Positions 3,504 through 6,674 of a DNA stretch of 44,601 bases are shown piece by piece. The notes beneath the pieces are model-generated. The model had not been told where the DNA came from. It saw nothing but the letters and a program-made list of their open reading frames with translations, and searched no databases. Positions within the stretch are counted from its first letter, which is position 1. Each line of letters begins with the position of its first letter. Position numbers and translations under genes: made by a program. This DNA comes from Oerskovia merdavium. GTDB lineage: Bacteria > Actinomycetota > Actinomycetes > Actinomycetales > Cellulomonadaceae. Where the stretch lies: assembly GCF_014836755.1 (NCBI RefSeq), contig NZ_JACSQF010000014.1, positions 68,839-113,439 on the forward strand. Direction: 5' to 3'.

Positions 3504-3629
3504 GATGCGTTCGTCCCGTCAGTCGTGTTCGTCCCGCACGTGCGGTTCGCGCGGTCTGTCCCGCGCGACAGCACACCCTACCCGGCGGGCACCCACACCC
3601 GACCTCACGATCTGTCAGACCCTGGCGTC

Positions 3630-3635
3630 TACAGT
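3630..3635 (+). promoter_or_regulatory. candidate -10 for the MGMT cluster
   Basis: TACAGT fits an actinobacterial -10 and would start transcription near 3642, about 50 nt before the GTG at 3692. An in-frame ATG at 3638 lies too close to this element to be the start. No convincing -35 is visible. Confidence 0.4.
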
Positions 3636-3691: not shown

Positions 3692-4219
3692 GTGTCGCAG
3701 CTGCTTGACCGGCCCGAGCGGACCGTCCGCCACGGGATCTTCGGCTCGCCCGTGGGAGAGCTCACGGCGGTCGGGGGCGCGGACGGGCTCCGGGCCCTGT
3801 ACTTCGACGCCCACAAGCGGCGTCCCACGGGTGAGACGTTCGGCGAGCGCGACGACGACGCCTTCGAGGAGGTCCGCGTCCAGCTCGGCGAGTACTTCGC
3901 CGGCACCCGCCGCGAGTTCGACCTCGAGCTCGCCCCGGTCGGCGACGGCTTCCAGAAGAAGGTCTGGGCGCTGCTCGCCCAGATCCCCTACGGCGAGACG
4001 CGTTCCTACGGCGACCTCGCGCTCGCGCTCGGCGACAAGAACCTGGCCCGCGCGGTCGGGTCCGCCAACGGCCAGAACCCGCTGAGCATCGTCGTGCCCT
4101 GCCACCGGGTCGTCGGCGCCGACGGCAGCCTGACGGGCTACGCGGGCGGGATCGAGCGCAAGCAGTTCCTGCTCGCCCTCGAGGAGTCGGACGAGACCCG
4201 CGCGAGCCGGCTGTTCTGA
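3692..4219 (+). CDS. methylated-DNA--[protein]-cysteine S-methyltransferase (first copy)
   Basis: This 175-aa suicide repair enzyme transfers alkyl groups from O6-alkylguanine or O4-alkylthymine to its own cysteine. The active-site motif VVPCHRVV is present with Cys137. The family's winged helix is upstream (FQKKVWALLAQIPYGETRSYGDLA), and YAGGIERK-type C-terminal residues close the fold. The GTG start at 3692 is chosen because AGGAGG lies 7 bases before it; an earlier in-frame ATG at 3638 has no such site. The sigma-factor gene begins 16 bases after the stop, so co-transcription with the downstream repair genes is likely. Confidence 0.93.
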   Translation: MSQLLDRPERTVRHGIFGSPVGELTAVGGADGLRALYFDAHKRRPTGETFGERDDDAFEEVRVQLGEYFAGTRREFDLELAPVGDGFQKKVWALLAQIPYGETRSYGDLALALGDKNLARAVGSANGQNPLSIVVPCHRVVGADGSLTGYAGGIERKQFLLALEESDETRASRLF

Positions 4220-4235
4220 TGGCGTCTCGCATCCC

Positions 4236-4814
4236 GTGGCACAGGGCACCTCACGTCCTGGGCGTGCGGTGCGTCTACCCGACGTGAAGCCCTTCGAACA
4301 CGTCGTCGCCGAGCACGGCGCCACGGTCCTGCGCGTGTGCCGCGCGGTCCTCGGTCCCGTGGACGCCGACGACGCCTGGTCCGAGACCTTCCTGTCCGCC
4401 CTCACGGCCTACCCGCGCCTCGACGAGGGCGCCAACGTCGAGGCCTGGCTCGTGACGATCGCGCACCGCAAGGCGATCGACGTCACGCGGCGCCGGGCCC
4501 GTGCACCGGTCGCGGTGCCGGACGTCGCCGAGCTGGTCCACGCACCCAGCCGCGACGGGATCCCCGGGCAGCACATCGAGCAGGGCGACGACGACCTGTG
4601 GCGGGCGCTCGCGGCCCTGCCCCCCAAGCAGCGCCAGGCCGTGGCATACCACCACGTCGCCGGCCTGCCGTACCAGGAGGTCGCGTCGATCCTCGGCGGC
4701 AGCCCCGAGGCCGCGCGCCGGGCCGCCTCGGACGGCATGGGCGCGCTGCGGCGCACGTATCCGGCTGCCCGTCCTTCCTCAACCGCCCGCACCCCGAAGG
4801 GAAGTGCCTCATGA
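4236..4814 (+). CDS. ECF-type (sigma-70 family) RNA polymerase sigma factor
   Basis: This sigma factor of up to 192 aa has region 2 with DADDAWSETFLSAL (core-binding helix) and NVEAWLVTIAHRKAIDVTRRR (-10 recognition). Region 4 is ALAALPPKQRQAVAYHHVAGLPYQEVA with a helix-turn-helix (EVASILGGSPEAARRAASDG). GTG at 4236 is the longest start; GTG codons at 4269 and 4284 are equally possible, since family similarity begins near KPFEHVV. No zinc-finger anti-sigma gene adjoins it. The next gene is an MGMT joined by an ATGA overlap. Between two MGMT genes and alkA it is a strong candidate regulator of alkylation damage repair (inference). Confidence 0.88.
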   Translation: MAQGTSRPGRAVRLPDVKPFEHVVAEHGATVLRVCRAVLGPVDADDAWSETFLSALTAYPRLDEGANVEAWLVTIAHRKAIDVTRRRARAPVAVPDVAELVHAPSRDGIPGQHIEQGDDDLWRALAALPPKQRQAVAYHHVAGLPYQEVASILGGSPEAARRAASDGMGALRRTYPAARPSSTARTPKGSAS

Positions 4815-5461
4815 GCGACACCTCGCCCCGTCCGACGGACCTGCTCGCCTCCCTCGGGAGGGACCTCGACCGCGGCGCCACGCCCGACGACGACTCCCGG
4901 GCCGCGCTCTCGCGGCTGCACGACCGCCTCGCGGCCGACGCGGCGTCGTCGGGCCTGCTCGACGTCGCCTACCGCACGCTCGACACGCCCGTGGGCACGC
5001 TCCTGCTCGCCGCGACCGACCAGGGCGTCGTACGCATCGCGTTCGACGTCGAGGGGCACGACGCCGTGCTCGACCGCATCGCCCGCACCGTGAGCCCGCG
5101 CGTCCTGCGGTCCCCGGCGCGCCTCGACCGGCTCGCGACCGAGATCGACGAGTACTTCGCGGGCGAGCGCCGCACGTTCGACCTGCCGCTCGACCTGACC
5201 ATGGCCTCGGGGCCCTTCCGGCGCGAGGTGCTGAGCCACCTGCGCGACATCGGCTACGGGCGCACCGCGTCCTACGCCCAGGTCGCGGTGGCGGCGGGCA
5301 GCCCGCGCGCCGTGCGGGCCGTGGGGACCGCGTGCGCCAAGAACCCGCTGCCGCTCGTGGTGCCGTGCCACCGGGTCGTGCGCTCGGACGGCACGAGCGG
5401 CAGCTACGCGGGCGGCCCGGAGGCCAAGCGTCTGCTGCTCGCGCTGGAGAGCGCGGCATGA
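4811..5461 (+). CDS. MGMT with N-terminal extension (second copy)
   Basis: This 216-aa protein has a complete MGMT domain: FRREVLSHLRDIGYG winged helix, LPLVVPCHRVV with active Cys186, and SYAGG after it. Unlike the first copy it carries about 50 extra N-terminal residues rich in Asp, Arg and Ala (LLASLGRDLDRGATPDDDS, then ALSRLHDRLAADAASSGLL), predicted helical. Its ATG overlaps the sigma-factor stop and its stop overlaps the alkA start, both as ATGA, giving tight translational coupling. The extension could contact the sigma factor, making this protein both repair enzyme and sensor (inference only). Confidence 0.9.
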   Translation: MSDTSPRPTDLLASLGRDLDRGATPDDDSRAALSRLHDRLAADAASSGLLDVAYRTLDTPVGTLLLAATDQGVVRIAFDVEGHDAVLDRIARTVSPRVLRSPARLDRLATEIDEYFAGERRTFDLPLDLTMASGPFRREVLSHLRDIGYGRTASYAQVAVAAGSPRAVRAVGTACAKNPLPLVVPCHRVVRSDGTSGSYAGGPEAKRLLLALESAA

Positions 5462-6402
5462 CCTCGCTGCCCGACGGCGTCGCGACCGTCCCGCAGGCCG
5501 GCGCGCCGGAGGTGGGCGTCGGGTCGTGGACGCGCCGCGTCCCGGTGGTCGGGCCCTTCGACGCGGCCTCGGCGCTCGCGACGCTCGTCGCGCACGCCGT
5601 GCCCGGCGTCGACCGCGTCGACCGCTCCGACCTCGCGCGTGGTGAGGTCACGCGGCTCGTCGAGACGAGCGCGGGAGCCGTGGCCGTGACGGTGCGGCTG
5701 ACGCCCGAGGAGATCGGTGTGCGGGGGAGCGGGCCGGGCGCCGACGAGGTCTGTGCCCTGGTCGCCCGGTGGTTCGACGCGGACGCCGACCTCGCGACCG
5801 TGCACACGGTCCTGGGGGCCGACCCGGTGCTCGCGCCCCTGCTCGCCCGACGGCCGGGACTGCGTGTCGTCGGGCACCCGTCGGGGTTCGAGGCCGCCGT
5901 CACGACCGTCCTGGGCCAGCAGGTCTCGCTCGCGGCGTGCCGGACCTTCGCGGGGCGGCTCGCGGCCGCCTACGGTCGCGAGGCGGGCGTCGTGGGCGCG
6001 GACGGCCTGCGCCTGTTCCCCGACCCGGACATGCTCGCGGGCGCCCAGGCCGCCGAGCTGCAGTCCGCCGTCGGGATCACGGGTGCCCGGACCCGCACGC
6101 TGCTCGCTCTCGCTGCCGCCTGCGCGGACGGGCTCGTGCTCGGGCCCCACGTCGCGGACGACCCCGCGGCGCTCGCGGACACCCGCGCGCGGCTGCTCGC
6201 GCTGCCCGGGATCGGGCCGTGGACGGTCGACTACCTCTCGGTCAAGGTCCTGGGCGACCGCGACGGGTTCGTGCCCGGCGACCTGGTGCTCCGCAAGGCT
6301 CTCGGCGGGATCGACGCGCGCGCGGCCGCACGGACGGCCGAGGCATGGTCGCCGGTCCGTGCCTACGCGCTGTTCCACCTCTGGACCCACACCGCCTACT
6401 GA
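5458..6402 (+). CDS. AlkA-like DNA-3-methyladenine glycosylase II
   Basis: This 314-aa base-excision enzyme removes alkylated purines. The helix-hairpin-helix is LLALPGIGPWTVDYL (about 246-260). It is followed by GFVPGDLVLRKAL, in which Asp275 aligns with the catalytic Asp of AlkA. The N-terminal 100 residues form the AlkA_N-like beta domain, then GFEAAVTTVLGQQVSL is the conserved helical entry. There is no fused Ada N-terminal zinc domain, unlike many actinobacterial AdaA-AlkA proteins. It is the last gene of the overlapping sigma-MGMT-alkA unit. Confidence 0.92.
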   Translation: MTSLPDGVATVPQAGAPEVGVGSWTRRVPVVGPFDAASALATLVAHAVPGVDRVDRSDLARGEVTRLVETSAGAVAVTVRLTPEEIGVRGSGPGADEVCALVARWFDADADLATVHTVLGADPVLAPLLARRPGLRVVGHPSGFEAAVTTVLGQQVSLAACRTFAGRLAAAYGREAGVVGADGLRLFPDPDMLAGAQAAELQSAVGITGARTRTLLALAAACADGLVLGPHVADDPAALADTRARLLALPGIGPWTVDYLSVKVLGDRDGFVPGDLVLRKALGGIDARAAARTAEAWSPVRAYALFHLWTHTAY

Positions 6403-6458: not shown

Positions 6459-6674
6459 ATGAGCACCACGACGCACACCGCACCGGACCGGGACGTGCCG
6501 GACCTCGACGCGGACGACGACGTGCGCGACCAGATCGAGGCCGGGGTCCTGTTCGCCAACGGACGGCTCGCCGGACGCCGGTTCGCGTCCCTCGCGGAGG
6601 CCCAGGCCTGGGCGCACCCCGAGCTCGGCGACCAGGTCGTCGAGTTCAACCCGGTCTGCGACTGCTCGGTCTGA
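6459..6674 (+). CDS. hypothetical 71-aa protein with C-terminal CxC
   Basis: I do not recognise this small acidic protein. The first 30 residues are polar and Asp-rich, then comes a short folded-looking stretch (GVLFANGRLAGRRFASLAEAQAWAHPELGDQVV). It ends VCDCSV, a CxC pair that could bind metal or take part in redox chemistry. GGGAAGGA precedes the ATG at good spacing, and CATACT about 40 bases upstream may serve as a -10, so it probably has its own promoter between alkA and ligA. Confidence 0.7.
   Translation: MSTTTHTAPDRDVPDLDADDDVRDQIEAGVLFANGRLAGRRFASLAEAQAWAHPELGDQVVEFNPVCDCSV

Follow-up and report, generated by a model that had tools for sequence, protein, structure and literature searches.

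A cluster of four genes in Oerskovia merdavium encodes an alkyltransferase (MGMT1), an extracytoplasmic function (ECF) sigma factor, a second alkyltransferase (MGMT2) and the glycosylase AlkA. It lies in a 44,601-nucleotide stretch of contig NZ_JACSQF010000014.1 (positions 68,839 to 113,439), hereafter called the window. We propose that the cluster probably belongs to an alkylation response run by the ECF sigma factor, in which MGMT2 would act as an alkylation-sensing anti-sigma factor that frees the sigma factor upon repair. Sequence analysis established the genes, the sigma-MGMT2 pairing, a shared promoter motif, the gene set and the co-occurrence of the sigma factor with a helical extension of MGMT2.

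The sigma factor, its promoter and its partner

MGMT1 (3692-4219, + strand) is an Ogt-type O6-alkylguanine-DNA alkyltransferase without N-terminal extension (PF01035, 5.5e-35; PF02870, 1e-9), and its GTG start codon is preceded by GGAGG. The sigma factor (4284-4814, +) comprises 176 amino acids with regions sigma2 and sigma4 only (Sigma70_r2, 3.4e-13; Sigma70_r4_2, 1.4e-11); the open frame spans 4236-4814, and comparison with relatives points to the GTG at 4284 as the likeliest start. MGMT2 (4811-5461, +) is an alkyltransferase (PF01035, 1.2e-30; PF02870, 1.8e-11, from residue 53 on) with an N-terminal two-helix extension, and AlkA (5458-6402, +) is an AlkA-type DNA-3-methyladenine glycosylase II (PF06029 AlkA_N, 1.4e-14; PF00730 HhH-GPD, 2.5e-6). 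These Pfam matches confirm the row of genes named in the first-pass annotation, a reading of the letters without database searches. Its ATGA overlaps among the last three genes are found at 4811-4814 (sigma/MGMT2) and 5458-5461 (MGMT2/AlkA), while MGMT1 and the sigma gene do not overlap. The same annotation had described the sigma factor as lying between two methyltransferases without a zinc-finger anti-sigma factor. This holds in so far as Pfam detected no anti-sigma domain in the four cluster proteins or four scanned flanking genes, but MGMT2 turned out to be a near-obligate partner and is itself likely the anti-sigma factor.

This partnership was followed through three samples. Among 59 related genomes, 23 encode a sigma orthologue (E<=3.0e-31; next matches 5e-16 or weaker). 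A class sample of 393 genomes, which overlaps the former, held 54 sigma-positive ones, with weaker sigma matches mostly uninspected; for the best matches 27 new loci (L051-L077) were fetched. Finally, a scan of GTDB found sigma relatives encoded by 384 stretches, the best 80 of which form a set of named loci that shares some species with the set of 47 sigma-MGMT2 pairs used for alignments. MGMT2 lay directly 3' of the sigma gene in 22 of the 23 sigma-positive relatives and adjoined it in all 27 class loci and, by script, in 78 of the 80 named loci. Of the two misses, one contig ends just after the MGMT2 frame start (L147) and the other locus is a true split (L158). Co-occurrence of sigma and MGMT genes across actinobacteria, which the first-pass annotation had put forward as a check, is thus strong. 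The 4-base overlap of sigma stop and MGMT2 start recurs in 43 of the 47 pairs and 67 of 78 named loci and is for that reason not a product of chance. Since the pairing is near-invariant and MGMT1 lies upstream in only 40 of 78 loci (42 of 80 under a slightly different rule), the core of the system, judged by gene order, is the sigma-MGMT2 pair, with MGMT1 and AlkA as variable accessory or cargo genes. In the 2.8 kb 3' of MGMT2, and in the same orientation, the 78 loci encode a PF09859 oxygenase (20), AlkB (17), Tag (16), AlkA (15) or an Ada-zinc protein (12), and at least one of these five repair genes was present in 47. A tree of 23 MGMT1 and 74 MGMT2 sequences gave 0 misplacements; its split support was only 0.44, and it was not used as evidence.

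Two copies of one motif, CTCAC-N17-CGTCTAC, mark the cluster. The first, a predicted ECF promoter of MGMT1, lies at 3604-3632 (+), corresponding to C5:72442-72470 of the window's own genome; the second, a predicted autoregulated sigma promoter, lies at 4250-4278 (+). Because the -10 element of the latter ends 5 nucleotides before the likely GTG start, the sigma mRNA is suggested to be leaderless. For the searches, we distinguished this strict motif from a looser form (CTCAC-N16to18-CGTY) and used the reversed pattern as control. The strict motif was found before MGMT1 in seven of seven genomes of the genus, where the reversed control gave 0 matches. The looser motif was present upstream of the sigma gene in 38 of the 47 loci versus 74 of 2350 shuffles, and the spacer was 17 in all 38, though 16 to 18 were allowed. 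In the 80 named loci it was detected before the sigma gene in 60 and before MGMT1 in 16 of the other 20 (76 in total, a count without shuffle control). Aligning 95 distinct sites gave the consensus GAY-CTCAC-R at -35 and CGTCTAC at -10; here the search pattern dictated CTCAC and CGTY, and the flanking letters were free. The earlier suggestion to look for a shared promoter motif upstream of 3692 and of other repair genes has therefore been borne out.

MGMT2 combines an ordinary enzyme with an unusual N-terminus. Its PF01035 and PF02870 domains and PCHR active site identify it as an O6-alkylguanine-DNA alkyltransferase. The PCHRV site (5363-5377, +; C186) is invariant in 47 aligned rows, and PCHR was found in 124 of 125 MGMT2 copies extracted by script; the one exception, L138, is explained by a wrong choice of frame. 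By these sequence features, the active site is intact and the enzyme part ordinary; its best structural matches are Mycobacterium tuberculosis OGT (4bhb, 4wxc) and the Ada C-terminal domain (1sfe). Profile matches to these begin at positions 42, 42 and 39, respectively, leaving most of the extension without counterpart there. No match to a natural Ogt/Ada structure starts before profile position 39, and two engineered fusion chains match from 12 and 26. The extension covers residues 1-51 in the window (4811-4963, +), and across relatives the extra N-terminus measures about 25-75 residues, with the pattern LxRLHxRLxxxAxxxGLLDVAYR at its end. AlphaFold2 predicted two helices, 8-20 and 27-46, with an overall predicted local distance difference test score (pLDDT) of 93.4, the block means in the extension ranging from 68 to 90; L36, L40, A44 and D51 are invariant in the 47 rows. 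With a 58-position helix profile, helix-covering matches were obtained in 21 of the 23 relatives that have the sigma factor and in none of the 36 that lack it (Fisher 5e-14); in G034 and G023 the matches begin only at the enzyme part. A divergent subgroup, G037 (L043) and G052 (L049), has kept the ATGA overlap as well as a motif of the form CTCAC-N17-CGTT.

The regulon, its relation to Ada and the neighbourhood

The motif reaches beyond the locus. In the seven genomes of the genus, 17 strict matches (0 for the reversed control) comprised 7 before MGMT1, 5 before the sigma gene, 3 before a gene for an Ada-zinc-like protein and 2 seemingly unrelated ones, so that the Ada-zinc-like gene is preceded by the motif in all three genus genomes where PF02805 detected it. 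Across the 59 relatives, 28 strict matches fell in 15 of the 23 sigma-positive genomes (reversed control 3) versus 2 in the 36 sigma-negative genomes (reversed control 8). Of the 28, 21 lie before a gene of this system (sigma, MGMT1, MGMT2 or Ada-zinc-like), and the remainder are seemingly unrelated or unplaceable. In the two genomes seen with a split MGMT2, G051 (a fragmented assembly) and Rhodococcus rhodnii, the distant MGMT2 has a motif copy immediately before it, and R. erythropolis has the motif before a PF09859 oxygenase gene that is unlinked to the locus. Six named genomes held 14 strict matches (reversed control 2), seven of them before sigma, MGMT1, MGMT2 or PF09859 genes; in Cellulomonas sp. 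Root930 we found the looser motif only and no strict one. Taken as motif plus gene set, the predicted regulon is well supported.

Two observations concern individual genes. In the window's own genome (G000), a NUDIX hydrolase gene begins just after a perfect motif match (L103, C42:222505-222533). We rejected it as a regulon member: the six other genomes of the genus contain no such strict match, so it is probably due to chance. The Ada-zinc-like protein stands alone, with about 86-114 amino acids, in three genus relatives (L090, L099, L104) and at L136:7082-7339. It matches only positions 20-63 of the 65 of the Ada_Zn_binding profile, and by eye a glycine stands where the Ada site has its first cysteine, the methyl acceptor in Ada (YGRLDC...PCAVC). 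Its gene is located behind a sigma promoter or inside the operon.

A search of the window's genome for Ada_Zn_binding (PF02805) gave nothing at E<=1e-3, and Pfam did not detect the domain in the four proteins, AraC-type regulators not having been searched genome-wide. Together with the shared promoter motif, this supports the first-pass idea that an alkylation-repair regulon has an ECF sigma factor of its own. In the 59 relatives, sigma and Ada_Zn_binding (E<1e-27) coincide in a single genome, against 22 genomes with sigma alone, 23 with Ada alone and 13 with neither (Fisher 2.7e-6); in the 44 genomes of the same order within the class sample, the corresponding counts are 1, 15, 26 and 2 (Fisher 8.9e-9), both tests ignoring shared ancestry. 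Sigma-type and Ada-type species even occur within one genus in two cases (G011 versus G035, and G408 versus its congeners). Outside the order, many genomes hold both the sigma system and Ada (for example in family f22 and genus g59), where the two may divide labour.

The cluster is flanked by genes for a YdjM-type membrane protein, a RIO kinase, a 71-amino-acid protein and an NAD-dependent DNA ligase, and the closest named relatives of the window are Oerskovia species. The 71-amino-acid protein (6459-6674, +; 3' of AlkA) ends in NPVCDCSV and matched no Pfam family; similar frames occur in the genus loci L033 and L034.

Proposed mechanism and rival explanations

Our model contains three steps that we infer: the sigma factor reads the motif, MGMT2 binds the sigma factor, and alkylation releases it. 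The sigma factor would recognize CTCAC-N17-CGTCTAC promoters, its own included. Because it would drive its own promoter, a brake on it is to be expected. MGMT2 is a translationally coupled partner with a predicted two-helix addition and a single-use alkyl acceptor, and for these reasons we take it to be the candidate for a brake that is consumed by repair. Produced in step with the sigma factor from the overlapping gene, it would keep the latter inactive via its two-helix N-terminus; CnrY is described as wrapping CnrH with two helices (PMC7406223). Alkyl transfer from DNA to the active-site cysteine of MGMT2 would then cause a shape change or destabilisation and release the sigma factor; for some members of the alkyltransferase family, the melting temperature is reported to fall strongly once they are alkylated (PMC10779285). 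Free sigma factor would turn on MGMT1 and sigma-MGMT2-AlkA; targets added in other species would be AlkB, Tag, the PF09859 oxygenase and the small Ada-zinc-like protein. Once the lesions are gone, fresh unalkylated MGMT2 would end the response. On balance, we lean towards the wider view that a suicide repair enzyme doubles as anti-sigma factor and frees one sigma per lesion. The cell would then count O6-alkylguanine stoichiometrically, and a second adaptive response of separate evolutionary origin would have taken the place of Ada in several lineages of the order.

Several observations weigh against this proposal. For a docking model, we took L063, where the sigma gene, its stop and MGMT2 lie in one frame, read the natural TGA as Gly and submitted the chain to AlphaFold2 with 35 rows chosen after local MAFFT trials. 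The read-through chain reached a pLDDT of 65.6 and a predicted TM-score (pTM) of 0.41, so that docking was unsupported. Likewise, covariation between sigma and MGMT2 was not significantly higher in the extension than in the enzyme body (96 pairs, effective number of sequences Neff 67, p=0.08). The divergent sigma-positive relatives G037 and G052 carry an MGMT2 without the second-helix motif, and the strict L3L3A6D pattern is missing from 9 of 124 MGMT2 copies. On the side of the regulon, no strict motif match was found in 8 of the 23 sigma-positive relatives, one genus supplies 17 of the 28 strict matches, and the other 7 of the 14 strict matches in the six named genomes look unrelated. Four of the 80 named loci (L147, L161, L167, L169) lack the looser motif before both sigma and MGMT1, with MGMT1 at the contig edge in L167, and 31 of 78 loci had none of the five repair genes in the interval searched after MGMT2, two of them with less than 1 kb of sequence there. 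Finally, outside the order 29 genomes have both sigma and Ada, 9 sigma only, 218 Ada only and 93 neither (p=0.57), so that 29 of the 38 sigma-positive genomes have Ada. A class-wide exclusion is thereby ruled out and near-exclusion holds within the order only; in these genome counts, the replacement of Ada by the sigma factor is a local pattern and not a rule.

The missing support for a sigma-MGMT2 contact in the docking and covariation tests would fit an explanation in which the sigma factor runs the repair regulon but is set elsewhere, by an unlinked anti-sigma factor, by transcription or by proteolysis. MGMT2 would then be cargo, and its helices would serve, for example, to recruit repair to RNA polymerase. 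Many ECF groups are indeed described as lacking a cognate anti-sigma factor, their control being uncharacterised (PMC8999054). Yet the partner that is near-invariant and overlaps translationally is the helix-bearing MGMT2, not MGMT1, other conserved partners not having been searched for systematically; this MGMT2 also tracks the sigma factor (21/23 versus 0/36), and a positively autoregulated sigma factor would require a brake. We regard this explanation as possible, though rather unlikely.

The same pairing and helix data also fit a co-activator, in which alkylated MGMT2 would bind and activate the sigma factor or the holoenzyme, as methylated Ada does, instead of unmethylated MGMT2 inhibiting it. 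Ada provides a precedent for a self-alkylating activator (PMC10779285), but ATGA-coupled synthesis and a two-helix appendage would be more typical of an anti-sigma factor, and Pfam detected no Ada_Zn_binding or other activator domain in MGMT2; activation in this manner thus seems improbable. That an ordinary constitutive repair cluster merely has a sigma gene nearby by chance is hardly credible, given a pairing kept across the class, a motif spacer of exactly 17 nucleotides and the same motif at some unlinked repair genes. Release of the sigma factor from MGMT2 upon alkylation is the explanation we prefer.

Known systems and significance

The group ECF122 is described with 6-O-methylguanine DNA methyltransferases in its neighbourhood, the entry 'Unknown mechanism' and the exemplar WP_057211282.1 from Cellulomonas sp. 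Root930 (PMC8999054). L157 is the orthologue of the window's sigma factor in this very strain and adjoins a helix-bearing MGMT2. The window's factor shares with ECF122 a sigma2 and sigma4 architecture without adjacent classical anti-sigma factor (among the four genes and the four flanking genes), and an adjacent 6-O-methylguanine DNA methyltransferase is conserved with its family. By these similarities, it very probably belongs to ECF122. The association of ECF122 with methyltransferases is thus already in print, and the account of the group in PMC8999054 gives no mechanism, sensor or regulon. Our literature search on sigma factors and alkylation repair returned no mechanism for this sigma factor in titles or abstracts. 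The ECF reclassification of Casas-Pastor et al. 2021, which defined ECF122, may already contain a promoter prediction. New are the promoter motif and regulon, MGMT2 with its two-helix N-terminus as near-invariant partner, and the near-exclusion of sigma and Ada within the order.

MGMT2 resembles CnrY in having two short helices in about 50 residues, here predicted, a likeness of layout in which neither sequences nor structures were compared. CnrY is part of a membrane signalling system, whereas MGMT2, which carries the helices here, is a soluble DNA repair enzyme. The system resembles Ada and AdaA-AdaB in its types of target gene (ogt, alkA, alkB) and, likely, in having a self-alkylating repair protein as sensor. 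It differs in using a sigma factor instead of an Ada-type activator and, as proposed, release instead of activation. The sensor cysteine would here be the O6-alkylguanine acceptor, whereas in Ada it is the phosphotriester cysteine.

The system described here represents an actinobacterial alternative to the adaptive response known from Ada. Its promoter motif is defined and its regulon predicted, its candidate sensor would respond to O6-alkylguanine itself, and it provides the orphan group ECF122 with a testable mechanism. If the mechanism is true, DNA repair enzymes would join the kinds of anti-sigma factor, and the compact sigma/promoter pair would be usable for alkylation biosensors. Many actinobacteria appear to run their alkylation defence via a dedicated sigma factor tied to a one-shot repair enzyme. 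This enzyme may itself be the damage sensor, and in some lineages the sigma system seems to stand in for the Ada regulator.

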